Below, one piece after another: positions 30,077-40,186 of a stretch of 54,414 bases of DNA. The notes beneath the pieces are model-generated. The model saw nothing but the letters and a program-made list of their open reading frames with translations. It made no database searches and had not been told where the DNA came from. The position numbers were made by a program, and so were the translations under genes. Each line of letters begins with the position of its first letter. Positions within the stretch are counted from its first letter, which is position 1. The stretch comes from Kofleriaceae bacterium (lineage in GTDB: Bacteria; Myxococcota_A; Polyangia; Haliangiales; Haliangiaceae), in assembly GCA_022842285.1 (NCBI GenBank), contig JALHPV010000013.1:1-54414 (forward strand), written 5' to 3'.

Positions 30077-30231
30077 GTGCTTGGCGCTCCTCGCCCACCT
30101 AAGTATACGTTTGTTATCGAGAGGTTGCGTCCTTTCGCGGGCAGTGCTCACGGCTGTGGGCAGCGGGGGCGTGTGTCATCGCGCACTTGCGTGAGCGTTG
30201 GGTTGGCCAGCTAGTTGCTGACCACGCGCGC

Positions 30232-31614
30232 GTGGGGAAACGCGCGCTCGCGTGGTCGTTCATTGCTGTCTCGGGTTCGGCCGTTGGCGCCTGCGGTGTG
30301 GAGCCGCAAACGGGTGCCGATATGGATCCCCACCTCGCCGTCACCGAGCAGGCGGCGACCGTCTGCGGCGACGGACCGACGGTCAAGGGCATCGACGTCT
30401 CGCGCTGGCAGCAGGACATCAACTGGACGGCCGTCGCCGGTGATGGCGTCGAGTTCGCGTTCATCCGCGCCTCAGACGGCCTCAACACCCCCGACACGAA
30501 GTTCGAGCAGAACTGGGCGGGCGCGAAGGCGAACGGCATCCTCCGTGGTGCCTACCAGTACTTCCGCCCGAACCAGGATCCGATCGAGCAGGCCGACCTG
30601 CTCCTCGCGAAGATGGGCCCCCTCGAGCCGGGCGACCTCCCGCCGGTGATCGACATCGAGACGATGGGCGGCATGTCGCAAGCCGTCGTGCAGCAGCGCG
30701 CCCGCGCGTGGATCGAGCACGTCAAAGCCGCCACCGGCATGCAGCCGATCATCTACACGGGCTTCTACTTCTGGCGTGACGAGGTCGGCGCCCCCGACTT
30801 CACCGACGCGCCCCTCTGGCACGCCCAGTACACGACCGCCCCGTGCCCGAACATCCCGCCCCCGTGGACCGACTGGGCGCTGTGGCAGTTCACCGACTCG
30901 GGCCCGGTCGCCGGCATCACCACCGGCGGCGTCGACATCAATCGCTTCAACGGCACGCGCGACGACCTGCTCGCCCTCGCGCGCCCGATCGGCCCCGCGG
31001 CATCGTGCGTCGCGCTCCCTGCCGAGGGCGGCGTCATCGACGACGGCGATCCGTGCTTCACGAAGGGCGGCCCGTCCGCCTCGCTCCGGCCGATCACCGA
31101 CGCCGGCCACGACGGCGACCTCGTCTGGACGTACACGACCGCCTCGCTCGCCGAGGCGAACTTCGCGCAGTGGAACATCCACCTCGCCGAGGCCGGCTCC
31201 TATCAGGTCGAGATCCACACGCCTGCCGCCTATGCGAAGTCCCGGCAGGCTCGCTACGACATCCTCGCCAACGGCGTCGGCATCGAGGTCACGCTCGATC
31301 AGACCGCCGTCGACGGCTGGCAGTCCCTCGGCACCATCGACTTCGCCGCCGGCGGTGACCAGTGGATCCACCTCGGCGACAACACGGGCGAGCCCGGCAC
31401 CGATCGCATCCAGCTCGCCTTCGACGCCGTCCGCGTGACCCGCGTTGTTCCCGGCGACTCTGGCGAGCCCGAGGAGCCCGATGACGGCCTCGCCGTCGAC
31501 GACCCGACGCCGGCTGGAGGCGATATCAATGGCGGCTGCAGCACTGGCGGCGCATCCGCCTCGCCGCTCATCGCGCTCGGCCTCCTCGGTCTCCTGCGCC
31601 GCCGCAAGCGCTAG
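30232..31614 (+). CDS. GH25 muramidase-like lipoprotein with golvesin-like domain and MYXO-CTERM-like tail
   Basis: 460 residues from GTG 30232; a TTG at 30187 in frame is less likely because it lengthens the signal. The signal ends in VGAC (lipobox-like, Cys 21). A glycoside hydrolase family 25 domain at about 52-265 contains KGIDVSRWQQDINW, FAFIRASDG, PPVIDIET with the acidic pair, and LWQFTDSG, so cleavage of peptidoglycan glycans is expected. About 290-405 resembles the golvesin C-terminal-like beta-sandwich (WNIHLAEAGSYQVEIHTP, FDAVRVTRV). The last 25 residues are Cys-Ser-Thr-Gly-Gly, a hydrophobic helix and RRRKR, a MYXO-CTERM-type sorting tail. Having both an N-terminal lipid signal and a C-terminal anchor is unusual. 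Confidence 0.88.
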   Translation: MGKRALAWSFIAVSGSAVGACGVEPQTGADMDPHLAVTEQAATVCGDGPTVKGIDVSRWQQDINWTAVAGDGVEFAFIRASDGLNTPDTKFEQNWAGAKANGILRGAYQYFRPNQDPIEQADLLLAKMGPLEPGDLPPVIDIETMGGMSQAVVQQRARAWIEHVKAATGMQPIIYTGFYFWRDEVGAPDFTDAPLWHAQYTTAPCPNIPPPWTDWALWQFTDSGPVAGITTGGVDINRFNGTRDDLLALARPIGPAASCVALPAEGGVIDDGDPCFTKGGPSASLRPITDAGHDGDLVWTYTTASLAEANFAQWNIHLAEAGSYQVEIHTPAAYAKSRQARYDILANGVGIEVTLDQTAVDGWQSLGTIDFAAGGDQWIHLGDNTGEPGTDRIQLAFDAVRVTRVVPGDSGEPEEPDDGLAVDDPTPAGGDINGGCSTGGASASPLIALGLLGLLRRRKR

Positions 31615-33187: not shown

Positions 33188-34222
33188 TCAGTCGGCGTAC
33201 GGAGCGAACGCGCCCTTCGAAGTGCGCTTGCGGTTGAACGCCGCGAGCTCCTGCTCGGTGTAGGCGTCGGCGCTGTCGGCGGGGAAGTGCTTGAGGATGG
33301 CGCCGAGGACGAGCGTGCGCGCGACGAAGCCGGCGCCGACCGCCTCCTCCGACTCGGTGCCCGGTTCGTCGGCATCGATCGACTCGTCCCACATCTCGAA
33401 GAGCGCCTGCTTCAGCTCGGCGGCATCGGTCTTCGTCGCGAAGAGCACCGCGAGGTTCTTGCGCACGATCTGCGGCGTGCGGGCGTACTGCTTCTTCTTG
33501 TGCGCGACGCCCATCTCGTAGCGCTCCTCGCGGGTCGCATCGAGGATCACGCGCTTGCGGTGGGCATACGGATCTTCGCCGCGCGCCCGCATGATCATGT
33601 CGGTCACATCGAACCGTCCGACGACGATCGGGAGCGGGAAGACGTGGGTGACCTGCACCAGGGGCGCGTCCTCGATCTCGACGGAGCCATCCTCGGCGAC
33701 GTGGACGGTGAAGACATCCTGGTCGCTTTCGTGACGACCTCCACCGACGGGCCGCAGGTGGCCGGACGTCGGGACCTCGGGCGGCGGCGGCGCGCCGGGC
33801 GGCAGGTCGTAGGCGGCGGTGTAGCCCGGCTCGGGGCGCTGGGGCCCGGTGCGCATGGCGAGCGGGTTCTGGCGAGGTGGCCCCGCGGGCGGCGCGTCCA
33901 CGGCAGGCGGGCCGTCGACCGGCGGCCGATCCTCGACACGTGGGCTCTCGGTGGCCGACCGGCCGGTCGAGATGGATCGCGGCGATCGGGCCGCGGCCGT
34001 CGGCGCGGAGCCAGCGACTACCGCGGCCGTCGGGAGTGCCGGGTCGGGGGGCGGCGCGGGGAGGAAGACGATCTCGATGGGCGTCGGCTCGACCAGCGCG
34101 AGGGGCGCGGGTGGAGCTTCGAGCTCGCGGTCCGGGTGGACCGGGGCGTGGGTGACCGCGTATGCGACCGCGAGGCCGTGGACCACGACCGACAGGCCGA
34201 TCCCGAGGTGGAGCGGTCGCAC
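33188..34222 (-). CDS. TonB-like anchored protein of unknown function
   Basis: 344 residues from GTG 34222. A short N-terminal TM helix (about 5-24) is followed by a long Pro/Ala-rich periplasmic linker (about 30-150), as in TonB and in gliding-motility AgmX/PglI-like proteins. The C-terminal domain (about 165-344) is mixed: strands (VFTVHVAEDGSVEIEDAPLV) and long helices (RKRVILDATREERYEMGV, RKNLAVLFATKTDAAELKQ), ending FAPYAD. I recognise the architecture but not the C-terminal family. Divergent from the ECF sigma gene (97 bp), and followed by the kinase gene, which could modify it. Confidence 0.75.
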   Translation of the reverse strand: MRPLHLGIGLSVVVHGLAVAYAVTHAPVHPDRELEAPPAPLALVEPTPIEIVFLPAPPPDPALPTAAVVAGSAPTAAARSPRSISTGRSATESPRVEDRPPVDGPPAVDAPPAGPPRQNPLAMRTGPQRPEPGYTAAYDLPPGAPPPPEVPTSGHLRPVGGGRHESDQDVFTVHVAEDGSVEIEDAPLVQVTHVFPLPIVVGRFDVTDMIMRARGEDPYAHRKRVILDATREERYEMGVAHKKKQYARTPQIVRKNLAVLFATKTDAAELKQALFEMWDESIDADEPGTESEEAVGAGFVARTLVLGAILKHFPADSADAYTEQELAAFNRKRTSKGAFAPYAD

Positions 34223-34275: not shown

Positions 34276-34319
34276 CAAGGCCCCGACACCTCGGGCGGGC
34301 GGGATGACAGGAGAGGTTG

Positions 34320-34940
34320 ATGCCCTTGTTCGCACGGTTATTTCGGCGAGGTGGAGGCGGCGACTTGCGCGCGGCTCAGGCGGGCGATCGCGACGCGATC
34401 GGGCGCTTCTACGACGCCCATGTGGACGCCCTGTACACGTTCGTCTTCTACCGGGTCGGCCGTGACGCCTCCCTGGCCGAGGATGTCGTCCAGGAGACGT
34501 TCGCGAACGCGCTGTCGCGCAAGGCCGACTACGACCCCGACCGCGGCTCGGTCGGGAGCTGGCTCACCGTCCTGTCGCGCAACGTCATTCGCGACCACCT
34601 GAAGGCCCACAAGCGGAGCGACAACCTGGCGGCGACCTGGGAACGGATCGACGCGACGCTCGCGCAGACGTTCGCGGCGATGGCCGAGCTACCGCTGCCG
34701 GGCGAGGTGCTGGAACGCGCCGAGACCCGCGACCTCGTGCACATGGCCGTCGCGAATCTGCCCGAGCAGTACCGGTCGGTGCTGACGCGCAAGTATGTCG
34801 ATGGCGAGAGCCTCGAGACCCTCGCGGGTGAGCTCGGCATCTCCGTCGGCGCCACCAAGTCTCTCCTCGCGCGCGCCCGCCGCGCCTTCCGCGACACGTT
34901 CGCGACCCTCTCTGTCTCGTTCTCCGAGGTGTCCCCATGA
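34320..34940 (+). CDS. ECF-type RNA polymerase sigma factor
   Basis: 206 residues from ATG 34320, with AGGAG 7-8 bp upstream; a TTG at 34317 is in frame but weaker. Region 2 (about 20-90) has DAIGRFYDAHVDALYTFVF, EDVVQETFANAL and VGSWLTVLSRNVIRDHLK; region 4 (about 138-195) has LPEQYRSVLTRKYVDGESLETLAGELGIS-type helices with a clear HTH. Such factors direct RNA polymerase to a small regulon and are normally held by a membrane anti-sigma factor. Its stop overlaps the next start by 4 bp (ATGA), and that gene encodes a FecR-like membrane protein, the likely regulator. Confidence 0.93.
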   Translation: MPLFARLFRRGGGGDLRAAQAGDRDAIGRFYDAHVDALYTFVFYRVGRDASLAEDVVQETFANALSRKADYDPDRGSVGSWLTVLSRNVIRDHLKAHKRSDNLAATWERIDATLAQTFAAMAELPLPGEVLERAETRDLVHMAVANLPEQYRSVLTRKYVDGESLETLAGELGISVGATKSLLARARRAFRDTFATLSVSFSEVSP

Positions 34941-37900
34941 CGAAGCTTCCCGACGACCAGGTCCTCGAGCGCAATGTCTCCACGCTGCTGGAGTCGGGCG
35001 GCGAGACGCCGCGCATCAGTGCAGCGGCCCGGACACGCATTCGCGCCGAGCTCCAGCACACGCACGGGCAGCCGACGGCCGCGCGGAGCAAGCTGCGCAT
35101 ACCACTGCTCGCGGTGGGCGCGGGGCTCGTGGCGACCGCCGCGGCCGCCCTCGTGATCTCGAAGCCGGGCGATGGCGCTGGATCGGGCGCCGGCGTCGTC
35201 GTCGCGGGCACGGATGCCAACCAGCTCGCCGATGGCACCACGTGGACGGCGGGCCCGGGCGGTACGCTGGCCGTGATCGGGGACCGGCGCGTGCGCGTCG
35301 AGGGCCCGGTGCTCCTCGATGTCGCGCCCGGCAAGGGGCAGTTCGTGGTCGAGACCGCGCGCGGGACCATCAAGGTCATCGGCACGCGCTTCCTCGTCGA
35401 TGGCGCCAAGGACAAGACCACCGCCGCCGTGGTGCGCGGCGTGGTGCAGCTCGCCAGCCGCGATGGCGAGGTCACGCTCCATGCGGGCGAGCAGGGCATC
35501 GCCGAGCCAGGGCGCCCACCGAGCCGCGGGCCGGCGCCGCGCCTGTCGAGCCTCGTGTCGTGGGCGAAGCAGGCCCGCCGCAAGGCGGAAGCAGACGTGC
35601 AGCCGATCCGGAACGGGACGCTGTTCGCGCGCGAGCCGAACAACCCGCACGTGCCCGAGTCGCCGCTGCCGATCGCGAAGCTGACCGTCGACGTCGTCGT
35701 CGAAGATCAGGTCGCGCGCGTCGCGCTCGATCAGACGTTCCACAACCCCGCGCCGCAGGTGATGGAGGGCATGTATCGCTTCGCGATTCCGCCCGACGCG
35801 GCCCTGCAGCGCCTCGCGATGTACGTGAACGGCACGCTCACGGAGAGCGCCGTGGTCGAACGCATGGCCGCGCGCCGGATCTACGAGGACGTCGTCTATC
35901 GCCGCCTCGATCCCGCGCTGCTCGAGTGGGCCGGGACCGGACGCCTGAACCTGCGCGTCTATCCGCTGCCCCCGCGCCAGGACAAGCGCCTGTTGCTCGC
36001 GTACACGCAGAGCCTCCCGAAGCTCTACGACGACTACACCGTGACGGTGCCGCTGCCCGAGGTGGATCAGCCGGTCGGCGAGCTCGACTTCGCGGTGCGG
36101 ATCGCGGGCTGCTCGAACTGCGAGGTCACCTCGCCGAGCCATGACGTGAAGGTCTCGCGCGAGGGCGACGATGCCCGCGTGGCCTACACGCAGAAGAGCG
36201 TACGCATCGGCGACTCGCTGGTGCTGCATGTTCGCGACACGCGGCGCACCGCGACGGTGGCCACGGAGGGGCCCTACCTCCTGGTGCGCGCCCGGCCCGA
36301 GCTGCCGGCGGCGCAGAAGGCGTACCGGCCGCGCACGTGGATCATCCTCGACGATGTGAGCGCCTCGCGCGGCACGATGGAGCTGCGGGCGCAGTCGGAT
36401 CTCGTCGACAACTTCCTCACCGAGCTGGATGAAGCCGATCGCGTCGCCGTCGTGGCGTTCGACACGGCGCCTCGCGTGGCGCTGCCGCTGACGCGCGTCG
36501 ACGCCGTGGATCGCCGTGCGGTGCGGACCGCGCTCACGGCGGAAGGGGGCGTGGGAGCGACCGACGTGGCCGCGGCTCTCGCGAAGGCGACGGAGCTCCT
36601 GGCCGGCGTCGCCCCCGATGACGCGATGGTCGTGTACCTCGGCGACGGCGTCATCACGGCGGGCGCGCGCGACCTCGAGTCGCTGCGCACCCAGCTCCGC
36701 GGCAAGGCGAAGTTCATCGGGGTCGGCATCGGCGATGGCCCCGACACGCAGACCCTCGCGGCCCTCGCCGCGGCCACGGATGGTTACTCGACGACGATCG
36801 ACCTCGCCGACGACGTGGGCTGGCGCGCCTTCGACCTCGTGGCCGCGCTCCATACCACGCGTGTCGTCGGACTCGCCGCGACGCTCGTCGATGGCAACGG
36901 CACGGCCCTTCCGGCGAACGTGTACCTGGGCCGCTCGCAGCTCGGCGACGGCGAGGAGCTCGAGGTCGTCGGCAAGCTCGACGGGACGGCCCGGGCGGCC
37001 GCGCTCCAGCTCACGGGCACCGTCGACGGTCAGCCGTGGAGCCAGCGCGTGGTGCTGAACGGTGCGGCCACGAACGCCGGCTACCTGCCGCGCCTCTGGG
37101 CCCAGCGTCACCTGGCCGCGCGCATGCTCGCCAAGCACGAGCCGGTGCAGCTGGCCGCGTGCAGTGGCGATGCGTGCCCGACCGAGGCGGAGGTCCGCTC
37201 GGAGCGGAACGAGAAGATCCGGCAGGAGGTCGTCGCGCTCGGCAAGGAGTACTTCCTCCTGTCGCGCCACACGTCCCTCCTCGTCCTCGAGGACGACGCG
37301 ATGTACGCCAAGTACAACGTCAAGAAGGGCGAGGGAGACACGTGGGCGCCCTACGCCGCGCCGGCGACAATTCCCGTCCCGACGACGTTCGTGCCGACCG
37401 TCGATGTCGCCGTCGACGCCGAGCTGACGCGCTCGCCGCTCCAGCTCTTCTACGACTACGCCGCCTTCGACAACCAGCGGTTCGAATCCCGTCGCAGTCG
37501 TGGCGGCGGGGTCGACGACGCGATGGCCTTCGACCTGGCCGGGCCGGTGGTTCCGCTGACGGATTCGCCCCGCAGCGGTGATTCCGACCGCGAGCCCGCC
37601 CCGGCGCCGTCCAGGCCGCAGGGCGAAGTGGTGGCCGCGACGGCGGCGACCGAGACCAAGGCGGATGTGCAGACGATCGACGTCGTGCGGAAGCGGACAT
37701 CGGCGGAGCCGGACACTGGGGACGACTGGACGGGCGCGGACAAGGCGGCCGACCGGATCTCGGTGGACGAGCTCGTCGGGGGCGCGCGGGACCCGCAGGG
37801 CTTCGGCACCGGCAGCGCGAGCTTCGGCGCCGGGGGCAGCATGGGGCGTGCGAAGAACAAGCGGTCCTACGCTCACGTGTACGGACAGACCATCCAGGCC

Positions 37901-40186
37901 GTCCGCCTCACGTACCCCAACGATGCCAGCTTCAATGATCTGACGGCCTTCGTGCCGGCCCTCGTCACCGACGGGGCGGACCTCCTGCGCCAGGACATCG
38001 TCGACCAGGGTGGGGTGAAGGCGCATGCCATCGACCCGGCGGCGCAGCGCCTCCTGGCGGCGGCGCGCGCCGCGTTGCCGGCGGGTGTGTACCGCTGGGG
38101 AGATCGGGAGATCGCGGTCGACAGCGCGCGCCGCTTCGGGTGGAAGCGCACGACGAGCACGGGCCTCGGCGAGACCGCGTCCTACGATGGCTCCACCTTC
38201 ACGCGCCGCTACGCCGAGCTCGGTCTCGACGTGACGCGCGCCTACTCCGAGGACGATATCGCGCTCGCGTTCGCGTACTTCCCGCTCTGGATCGCGGAGC
38301 CCGCGCACTACGCCCGCTACTTCGAGGTGGGCGCGCAGGGGACGCGCGAGGTCACGCTCTCGCGCATGACCCGCGGTGCGAAGCAGGTCGTGTACGTCCT
38401 CGCGTTCGACGACCAGTCGCACCTCGTCGCCATCCGCGACGGTCACGGGCGGGCGCTGTTCACGGCGACGTGGAGCGGCGCGCAGCTGTCGGGCATCACG
38501 TCCAGCGGTGAGGCGATCGACGTCGGCTTCTCCGGGCAGCCGCTCGGCGACGTGGCGAGCTGGGCCCATGGCTCGACGAACCCCGGCGTGGTGGTGAGCC
38601 TCCCTGGCCATGTCGTCGCGTACTGGGACGCGGCCGTGAAGAAGCTCGCCGTGGGCTCGGCCGAGTGGCGCCACGCGCAGCGCCAGCGCATGGTCGCGCT
38701 CGCCGCGGTCGGGCAACCCTACGAGCTGCGCAGCACGATCGAGCTGCTCGCCGCGAACGGCGGGGTCGAGCTCGGCGACGCGGTGCTGGCGAGTGGAGGC
38801 ATCCTCCAGCTCGAGGAGGGCAAGCGCGCGCCGCTCCTCGCCGCCATCTCGCGCACGCCGGTGGGCGTGTACCTCGGCGCGATGCGCTTCGGCGACAGCG
38901 GCATGTCGATCGCGAAGGCGGAGGTGACCTCGGGCCTGATCGGCGGCCTGTGGCAGCTGCGGGAGGCGACGGCGCTCGCGTACAACCAGAAGTGGACGGC
39001 GGCCGCGGATCGCCTGCTCGGCATCGAAGCGCGCGCGCTCGACTTCCGCCTCGTCGGCGCCTCGATGCTGACAAACCAGTACAACGCGCCGGCGATCGAG
39101 GTCGCGCGGGCGTGGGACGCGGCTGCCGTGGGCCCGTACAAGAACACGGCGCGGGCGGCGGCGGCGATGGCGTTCCTGTATCGCGGGGACAACGAGACGG
39201 GGACCGAGCGCCTCCTCCAGCTCGCGACGGACCTCGACCTCCGCGCCGCGCCGCCCCAGCTCACCGGCTATCAGTACGCCGTCCAGCAGTCGCGCCGCGG
39301 TCCGGCGGGCTGGCAGATGATCTGGAACACGGTGAAGGACAAGGTCCTCGCCGGCGGAAGCCTCGAGCACGTGCTCGCAATCCTGCCGCTCGCCCAGCAG
39401 GCGAACGCGAGTGACGTCTCGCTGATCCTCGCGAAGGCCGCGACGCTCGCCGCTGACGACCCCGAGATGCTCGCGATGCTCGCCGAGCTCGGGGTCTCGA
39501 TGGGCCAGGTCGAGTGGGCGCAGAACCTCGTCCAGCCGCTCCTCGCCAGGTCGCCGACGAGCGCGCTCCACCGCGTGGCGGCCACCATCGCACAGCGCCA
39601 GTCGCGCACCGCGGACTCGCTGCACCACCTCGAGGAGGCCTTCCGCCTGGCCGATCCGTCCGAGACCCTCAGCCTCACGTGGCTGCGGAGCGAGCTTCAG
39701 ACCATCATCGAGCAGGCTCGCCAGATCGCGACGGCCGCCTCGGGCCAGGCGCGCACCGATGCGATCGCCAAGCTGATGAGCTGGGCCAGAACGTGGCGCG
39801 AGCTCGACAGCGCGAACCCGCGGATCGACGGCCTCGTCGGCAACGCGCTGCTCTCGCTGGGGGAGACGGCCGAGGCGTGGCGCCAGCTCTCCACCATCAT
39901 CGAGCGCGACCCGATGGACGGCGCGAACTACATGATGGTCGCGGAGGTGTTCGAACAGCGCGGTCGCGTGGCCGAGGCGATCGACCTCTGGCAGCAGGCC
40001 CTCATCCTCGACCAGACGAACCCGACCCCGCGGATGCGCAAGGCCCAGGCGCTCATCACCGTCGGCCGCACCGCCGAGGGCGACCAGCTCCTCGCCGAGA
40101 TCGCGAACCGCAAGTGGCACGTCCGCTGGGACAACGTGATCTGGCAGGTCAAAAACATGCAGCAGCGGGCGGCGGGTCCGCGCTGA
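34937..40186 (+). CDS. Giant FecR-like / VIT / vWA / TPR membrane protein
   Basis: 1749 residues, translationally coupled to the ECF sigma factor. A short cytoplasmic N-terminus (1-52), one TM helix (about 54-75), then a FecR-like beta domain (about 100-190: GQFVVETARGTIKVIGTRFLV-like). A VIT domain follows (about 242-385, with ARRIYEDVVYRRLDPALLEW and YPLPPRQDKRLLLAY), then a vWA domain (about 466-630) with an intact MIDAS start D473-V-S475-A-S477 and later GDGVITAG. The middle (about 700-1250) is beta-rich and unassigned with a Cys pair (GDACPTEA). The C-terminus (about 1440-1745) has TPR-like helices. The N-terminal tail may be the anti-sigma contact and the outer domains the sensor; this is inference. 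Full length, no frameshift. Confidence 0.9.
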   Translation: MTKLPDDQVLERNVSTLLESGGETPRISAAARTRIRAELQHTHGQPTAARSKLRIPLLAVGAGLVATAAAALVISKPGDGAGSGAGVVVAGTDANQLADGTTWTAGPGGTLAVIGDRRVRVEGPVLLDVAPGKGQFVVETARGTIKVIGTRFLVDGAKDKTTAAVVRGVVQLASRDGEVTLHAGEQGIAEPGRPPSRGPAPRLSSLVSWAKQARRKAEADVQPIRNGTLFAREPNNPHVPESPLPIAKLTVDVVVEDQVARVALDQTFHNPAPQVMEGMYRFAIPPDAALQRLAMYVNGTLTESAVVERMAARRIYEDVVYRRLDPALLEWAGTGRLNLRVYPLPPRQDKRLLLAYTQSLPKLYDDYTVTVPLPEVDQPVGELDFAVRIAGCSNCEVTSPSHDVKVSREGDDARVAYTQKSVRIGDSLVLHVRDTRRTATVATEGPYLLVRARPELPAAQKAYRPRTWIILDDVSASRGTMELRAQSDLVDNFLTELDEADRVAVVAFDTAPRVALPLTRVDAVDRRAVRTALTAEGGVGATDVAAALAKATELLAGVAPDDAMVVYLGDGVITAGARDLESLRTQLRGKAKFIGVGIGDGPDTQTLAALAAATDGYSTTIDLADDVGWRAFDLVAALHTTRVVGLAATLVDGNGTALPANVYLGRSQLGDGEELEVVGKLDGTARAAALQLTGTVDGQPWSQRVVLNGAATNAGYLPRLWAQRHLAARMLAKHEPVQLAACSGDACPTEAEVRSERNEKIRQEVVALGKEYFLLSRHTSLLVLEDDAMYAKYNVKKGEGDTWAPYAAPATIPVPTTFVPTVDVAVDAELTRSPLQLFYDYAAFDNQRFESRRSRGGGVDDAMAFDLAGPVVPLTDSPRSGDSDREPAPAPSRPQGEVVAATAATETKADVQTIDVVRKRTSAEPDTGDDWTGADKAADRISVDELVGGARDPQGFGTGSASFGAGGSMGRAKNKRSYAHVYGQTIQAVRLTYPNDASFNDLTAFVPALVTDGADLLRQDIVDQGGVKAHAIDPAAQRLLAAARAALPAGVYRWGDREIAVDSARRFGWKRTTSTGLGETASYDGSTFTRRYAELGLDVTRAYSEDDIALAFAYFPLWIAEPAHYARYFEVGAQGTREVTLSRMTRGAKQVVYVLAFDDQSHLVAIRDGHGRALFTATWSGAQLSGITSSGEAIDVGFSGQPLGDVASWAHGSTNPGVVVSLPGHVVAYWDAAVKKLAVGSAEWRHAQRQRMVALAAVGQPYELRSTIELLAANGGVELGDAVLASGGILQLEEGKRAPLLAAISRTPVGVYLGAMRFGDSGMSIAKAEVTSGLIGGLWQLREATALAYNQKWTAAADRLLGIEARALDFRLVGASMLTNQYNAPAIEVARAWDAAAVGPYKNTARAAAAMAFLYRGDNETGTERLLQLATDLDLRAAPPQLTGYQYAVQQSRRGPAGWQMIWNTVKDKVLAGGSLEHVLAILPLAQQANASDVSLILAKAATLAADDPEMLAMLAELGVSMGQVEWAQNLVQPLLARSPTSALHRVAATIAQRQSRTADSLHHLEEAFRLADPSETLSLTWLRSELQTIIEQARQIATAASGQARTDAIAKLMSWARTWRELDSANPRIDGLVGNALLSLGETAEAWRQLSTIIERDPMDGANYMMVAEVFEQRGRVAEAIDLWQQALILDQTNPTPRMRKAQALITVGRTAEGDQLLAEIANRKWHVRWDNVIWQVKNMQQRAAGPR

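Follow-up and report, generated by a model that had tools for sequence, protein, structure and literature searches.

What does a membrane protein of 1749 residues do when it is encoded directly behind a sigma factor gene? The question is raised by the window, a stretch of 54,414 nucleotides (contig JALHPV010000013.1, assembly GCA_022842285.1) from a Kofleriaceae bacterium, a soil myxobacterium-like host, the contig being part of a 7.9-Mb draft genome. On the forward strand, the gene of an extracytoplasmic function (ECF) sigma factor of 206 residues (34320..34940) is followed by that of a giant, sigma-regulator-like membrane protein (34937..40186, recognized from its open reading frame (ORF), Pfam domains, and structure models). 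The stop codon of the first and the start codon of the second share a 4-bp ATGA overlap (34937..34940); an earlier note on this DNA, made from the sequence alone, had placed both ORFs and the overlap correctly. Probably, the two form an autoregulated ECF system in which the giant is the membrane regulator and its periplasmic VIT-vWA-TPR sensor controls genes for exported proteins.

The sigma factor belongs to the ECF group (sigma-70 family group 4), as it has the sigma2 and sigma4 regions and lacks sigma3. Both regions are recognized by Pfam (Sigma70_r2 at residues 30-99, 1.4e-13; Sigma70_r4_2 at 138-189, 1.1e-12), NCBIfam TIGR02937 is also above its cut-off, and CnrH is found, as a weak match, among the solved structures in the PDB that the sequence resembles. 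Most genomes of the genus have an ortholog of the giant; beyond the genus, orthologs are scattered over families of the class, and one was found in another class. In all 32 genomes whose DNA upstream of the giant was covered, which come from two classes, a sigma ortholog of 49-89% identity lies directly upstream, i.e., the regulator is co-encoded and co-conserved with its ECF partner; the survey for neighbouring sigma genes proposed in the earlier note has thus borne out the pair. The overlap, in the form RTGA (4 bp), is kept in 25 of the 28 loci of the clade of the window protein. Synteny of the pair with a kinase, a TonB-like gene, and a helicase does not extend beyond the family, and the pair persists in other families and in the other class where these three are lost. 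Chance conservation of the neighbourhood can be ruled out as the cause, because the pair stays while the other neighbours change.

With regard to the giant protein, the Pfam domains FecR, VIT, VWA_3, and TPR_19 each score over their cut-offs, and models were built from 27 aligned orthologs (mean predicted local distance difference test (pLDDT) scores of 81.6 and 82.9). Profiles and models agree on the layout that had been read from the sequence, namely a short cytosolic tail, one transmembrane (TM) helix, and FecR, VIT, vWA, and TPR parts, and the profile search that had been suggested recovered the FecR, VIT, and vWA domains. The tail (residues 1-52; 34937..35092, +) carries the motif VLExNVxxLL...PxIxxxARxRIxxxL and is predicted, with modest confidence, to form two helices (6-19 and 29-43), with N13, L17, A31, R34, and L39 conserved. 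The Hx3Cx2C zinc motif of class I (ASDI) anti-sigma factors is absent from residues 1-52. With about 50 residues and two predicted helices, the tail is too short for class I and bears a resemblance to class II. It is followed by a single Ala-rich TM helix (residues 53-75 by sequence; 35093..35161, +), which was modelled as helix 59-73 with low pLDDT, and then by a periplasmic FecR domain, an order characteristic of the FecR family. The FecR domain (residues 97-200; 35225..35536, +) is supported by Pfam (4.6e-7 at 118-171) and by a Foldseek resemblance to the putative anti-sigma structures 4m0n/4m0h, so that a FecR-like fold in residues 100-190, the absence of which would have spoken against the first reading of the locus, is upheld. 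By sequence alone, nothing in the PDB matched this domain significantly, 4m0n having an E-value of 0.46. Within it, Gly149-Thr150 in V(L/I)GTRF (35381..35386, +) is a candidate for the self-cleavage bond, by analogy with FecR/FoxR (PMC9249621); Gly is kept in 25 of the 27 orthologs and Thr in 26.

The outer part comprises a VIT domain (residues 248-356; 35678..36004, +; Pfam 3.2e-20) and a vWA domain (residues 464-640; 36326..36856, +; VWA_3 8.4e-12 at 469-618). The metal ion-dependent adhesion site (MIDAS) of the latter, which had been described as intact, is kept in every ortholog (D473, S475, S477, and D570 in 27/27, and T or S at position 542 in 27/27), and this conservation indicates that the site is under selection. 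The closest solved structure to the N-terminal half is human inter-alpha-inhibitor (ITI) heavy chain 1 (ITIH1; Foldseek 1e-29), with which 516 residues within 242-790 align at Z 24.6, a root-mean-square deviation (rmsd) of 6.7, and 15% identity, and the vWA domain matches the VWA of CLCA1 (Z 20.6, rmsd 2.1). Further on lie a poorly conserved linker modelled with low confidence (residues 830-983; 37424..37885, +), a beta-rich domain to which no family could be assigned (residues 1050-1199; 38084..38533, +; pLDDT about 85-97), and helical repeats that end in a TPR superhelix (residues 1227-1746; 38615..40174, +). In the last part, Pfam detects TPR at residues 1635-1724 (TPR_19, 9e-6), and TPR structures top the structure ranking. 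The earlier proposal that a sensor is linked to a sigma factor therefore stands as far as the conserved pair and an architecture fitting a membrane sigma-factor regulator are concerned. Its hint that a "trypsin-inhibitor-type" module points to the sensing of proteolysis finds no support, as the VIT-vWA unit resembles the ITI heavy chain and the inhibitor activity of that protein sits in another chain, bikunin.

The class also holds FecR-VIT-vWA-TPR proteins of 1.2-1.6 thousand residues, among which a second, class-wide and unrelated-looking clade pairs an ECF sigma factor with a zinc-type (Hx3Cx2C) anti-sigma/FecR/VIT/vWA/TPR protein (loci L056-L059, L086-L089, L091, L093, L095, L098, L101, L104, L123, L126, and L127). 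Sorangium/Polyangiaceae members carry such a pair, as does the window's own genome (L056, G000:C30). Where a cytosolic N-terminus with Hx3Cx2C or a similar motif precedes the TM helix, an ECF gene lies directly upstream in 17 of 17 loci, nine of them with the RTGA overlap of 4 bp. Relatives with a lipoprotein end, a signal peptide, or nothing but a Pro-rich end ahead of the TM helix have no ECF neighbour in any of 23 loci, each covered for 1.1 kb or more upstream, and act as a natural control. With N-terminal classes assigned partly by eye, this difference has a Fisher probability of 2e-11 as first counted and 2e-10 with one exception allowed. The strict regular expression alone gave 15/15 versus 3/25 (Fisher 2e-8); of the three exceptions, two combine a degenerate motif with a genuine ECF gene, and the neighbour in the third is not an ECF. 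An ECF match near L102, which has no anti-sigma end, was rejected upon inspection as the C-terminus of a primary-type sigma factor.

Upstream of the sigma gene, a promoter-like motif is formed by CGACAC (-35-like, 34284-34289), 16 nt, and GACA (-10-like, 34306-34309); the whole motif spans 34284..34309 on the forward strand and ends 10 nt before the start codon. An ECF-like promoter had been suspected at this place, and it can now be stated exactly: CGACAC-N16-GACA precedes the sigma gene in 28 of 28 loci and occurs with spacing 16 only (10 to 23 examined), against a background of 8 matches in 1.9 Mb (0.0011 per 260 nt). Its consensus is CGACACCT-N13-TGACA. By this sequence evidence, the autoregulation at which the earlier note had hinted is strongly indicated. 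At the sigma genes of the zinc-type clade, a single stray match was found in 17 loci, and the motif is not used there.

A candidate regulon emerges at the level of the family. Across the order, the strict motif yielded 40 sites versus 2 for a reversed-pattern control. In the 23 family genomes that have the pair, about 23 sites were counted beyond their own sigma promoter, compared with about 54 strict sites in some 283 genomes of the class without it, an excess with a Poisson probability of 3e-10 in which the coding-sequence background is only partly controlled. About 16 of the extra sites precede genes whose products, read by eye, have signal peptides or lipoboxes, and the start codon mostly follows the motif by 7-12 nt; transcripts would be nearly leaderless if GACA is the -10 element. 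The putative targets include a tandem couple of related secreted proteins that contain Cys, with a separate motif copy 10 nt before each start codon (L192, 294-1659), a lipoprotein with a nuclease domain (L195, SNase 1.5e-15), HEAT-repeat proteins (L199, L201, and L213), small CRC-type secreted proteins (L206 and L208), a paired family (L202 and L209), Cys-rich lipoproteins (L204 and L211), and other signal-peptide or lipobox genes (L205, L207, L214, and L217). In the L217 family, the motif lies upstream in all four genomes that have the gene, which belong to two genera; one of the four has a variant that the strict search missed, and in L236 a small lipoprotein ORF stands between motif and gene. 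In the window's own genome, where the regulon was sought by pattern search, the strict motif occurs at the sigma promoter and in one other place. Relaxed matches there fell mostly within coding frames, and none was convincing. As a separate observation, two HEAT-repeat genes (L254:1447 and L265:840, reverse) carry a CGATACCT-N13-TGACAC variant in the motif's place, perhaps reflecting a related sigma specificity.

How might the parts work together? The cytosolic tail, with its two predicted helices, would hold the sigma factor much as class II anti-sigma factors do; in CnrY, two helices embrace sigma2 and sigma4 (PMC4598750). One TM helix would join the tail to the periplasmic FecR domain, and the outer ITI-heavy-chain-like VIT-vWA unit, with its metal site, and the TPR superhelix would bind a protein or envelope ligand. 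Binding of the ligand, or its loss, may change the FecR domain, and the tail may then be freed through stepwise proteolysis or a conformational change. It was reported that FecR-type regulators cleave themselves at Gly-Thr and are then processed by Prc and RseP into anti- or pro-sigma fragments (PMC9249621). From promoters of the form CGACACCT-N13-TGACA, the freed sigma factor would transcribe both the operon that encodes it and a small set of genes for exported proteins, which varies between lineages.

The same parts could also act in the opposite direction, with the giant as a FecR-type positive co-activator whose released N-terminal fragment (pro-sigma) is needed for sigma activity. The presence of a FecR domain fits this alternative, as does the conservation in most orthologs of a Gly-Thr bond resembling the self-cleaving bond of FecR/FoxR. 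In addition, E. coli FecR requires its N-terminal ~59 residues for sigma activity (PMC7406223), and a FecR fragment of ~50 residues, the approximate length of the giant's tail, has pro-sigma activity (PMC9249621). However, there is no TonB-dependent receptor in the immediate neighbourhood, and the sister clade bears the Hx3Cx2C motif typical of inhibitors, which makes a pro-sigma role unlikely.

Several observations weigh against the pair being an autoregulated sigma factor held by its membrane sensor. The model of the tail is of modest confidence and does not include the sigma factor, and the correlation of sigma and giant evolutionary distances (r 0.93) is expected of any co-inherited genes. 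The reversed control is imperfect in coding DNA, genomes lacking the pair having ~0.19 strict sites each versus 0.035 for that control. Most homologs of the HEAT-repeat proteins and of the L211 type have no upstream motif, which is kept by close relatives only, and in the window's own genome no second target convinces besides the sigma promoter. Furthermore, the motif is unlike textbook ECF promoters of the AAC / CGT type, and hence it may be an operator of another regulator. On that account, GACA...GACA, 22 bp apart, would be bound by a different protein and the sigma factor would use another promoter; CGACAC and TGACA can be read as a direct repeat, the -10-like element is unusual for ECF promoters, and the window motif ends very close to the start codon. 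Yet the spacing of 16 is that of ECF promoters, as in the SigW promoter (TGAAAC-N16-CGTA), and is invariant, the presence of the motif tracks the sigma gene across families, and no second regulator gene is found with the pair at every locus, so an operator seems distinctly improbable. A third view takes the two genes for mere operon neighbours and the giant for a structural protein of the envelope, or an adhesion protein, that the sigma factor controls and whose FecR-like fold has no sigma-regulating role. It may appeal to FecR-VIT-vWA lipoproteins that exist without any ECF neighbour, but is very improbable given that, in two clades, ECF neighbours occur only with anti-sigma-like cytosolic ends (17/17 versus 0/23).

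Next to the pair, a divergent gene (33188..34222, reverse strand) encodes a TonB/TolA-like, Pro-rich protein of 344 residues with a short TM segment containing SxxxH. Of the 16 family loci, 14 have this gene next to the pair, with SxxxH kept in 14/14; it has no Pfam match, and 10 loci from other families showed no such gene beside the pair. This protein could be an accessory that energises or reports to the giant. Its C-terminal domain belongs to no assigned family. Elsewhere in the window, the gene at 30187-31614 (+) seems to encode a secreted lysozyme of the GH25 type whose tail is MYXO-CTERM-like, judged by reading the sequence only.

To our knowledge, the signal is not known for the majority of ECF systems in large myxobacterial genomes. 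Here, a defined sensor architecture, a promoter sequence, and candidate targets make signal and output directly testable. Beyond what the earlier note contained, the analysis brought to light the zinc-type second clade, the ECF-free lipoprotein relatives, and the candidate exported-protein regulon. The lipoprotein relatives suggest a route from secreted binding protein to receptor by gain of an anti-sigma end, and bacterial transmembrane signalling would gain, as a further building block, a VIT-vWA module of the ITI heavy-chain kind, which is known above all from the plasma and matrix of animals. A bolder extension, less likely than not, would be a class-wide family of bacterial receptors that act as anti-sigma factors. 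Their metal-dependent, integrin/ITI-like vWA head and TPR superhelix would sense a protein or matrix ligand at the cell envelope and switch on leaderless secreted-protein transcripts, and sigma control would have acquired this head on two or more occasions via different anti-sigma ends.

Among known systems, the pair is comparable to FecI/FecR-type signalling (E. coli FecR and Pseudomonas aeruginosa FoxR) in that the gene after the ECF gene encodes a regulator with a single TM helix, a periplasmic FecR domain, a cytosolic tail of ~50 residues, and a conserved Gly-Thr within the FecR domain. Unlike FecR/FoxR, the giant has 1749 rather than ~320 residues, with VIT, vWA, and TPR parts added; its genes adjoin no TonB-dependent receptor gene, the immediate neighbours being the kinase, the TonB/TolA-like protein, and the helicase, and the targets are, as far as seen, not iron-uptake genes. 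VIT-vWA fold, MIDAS, and the metal-site Asp/Ser/Thr set are shared with ITIH1, whereas the giant is a membrane protein with FecR and TPR parts and low sequence identity, and none of the 18 Pfam matches listed for it is an ITI C-terminal domain. Its best NCBIfam match, the marine sortase-target VIT-vWA proteins of TIGR03788, remains below the cut-off (121.3 versus 551.65 bits), and its C-terminus is formed by TPR, with no sorting signal there. Class I anti-sigma factors, in which Hx3Cx2C is typical but not universal, are represented by the sister clade, where the motif stands beside an ECF gene and in front of the same FecR-VIT-vWA-TPR exterior, whereas the window protein does without it. No VIT/vWA anti-sigma system was found in the open literature, the main ECF classification paper lying outside that coverage, and the group may already be listed in that classification; the system is a variant of ECF/anti-sigma signalling and apparently new. 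CnrH/CnrY (class II) is comparable at the cytosolic end, where the giant likewise has a very short tail, with two predicted helices, ahead of a single TM helix. CnrY, however, is a small protein that relies on a separate CnrX for sensing, whereas in the giant the sensor is fused.

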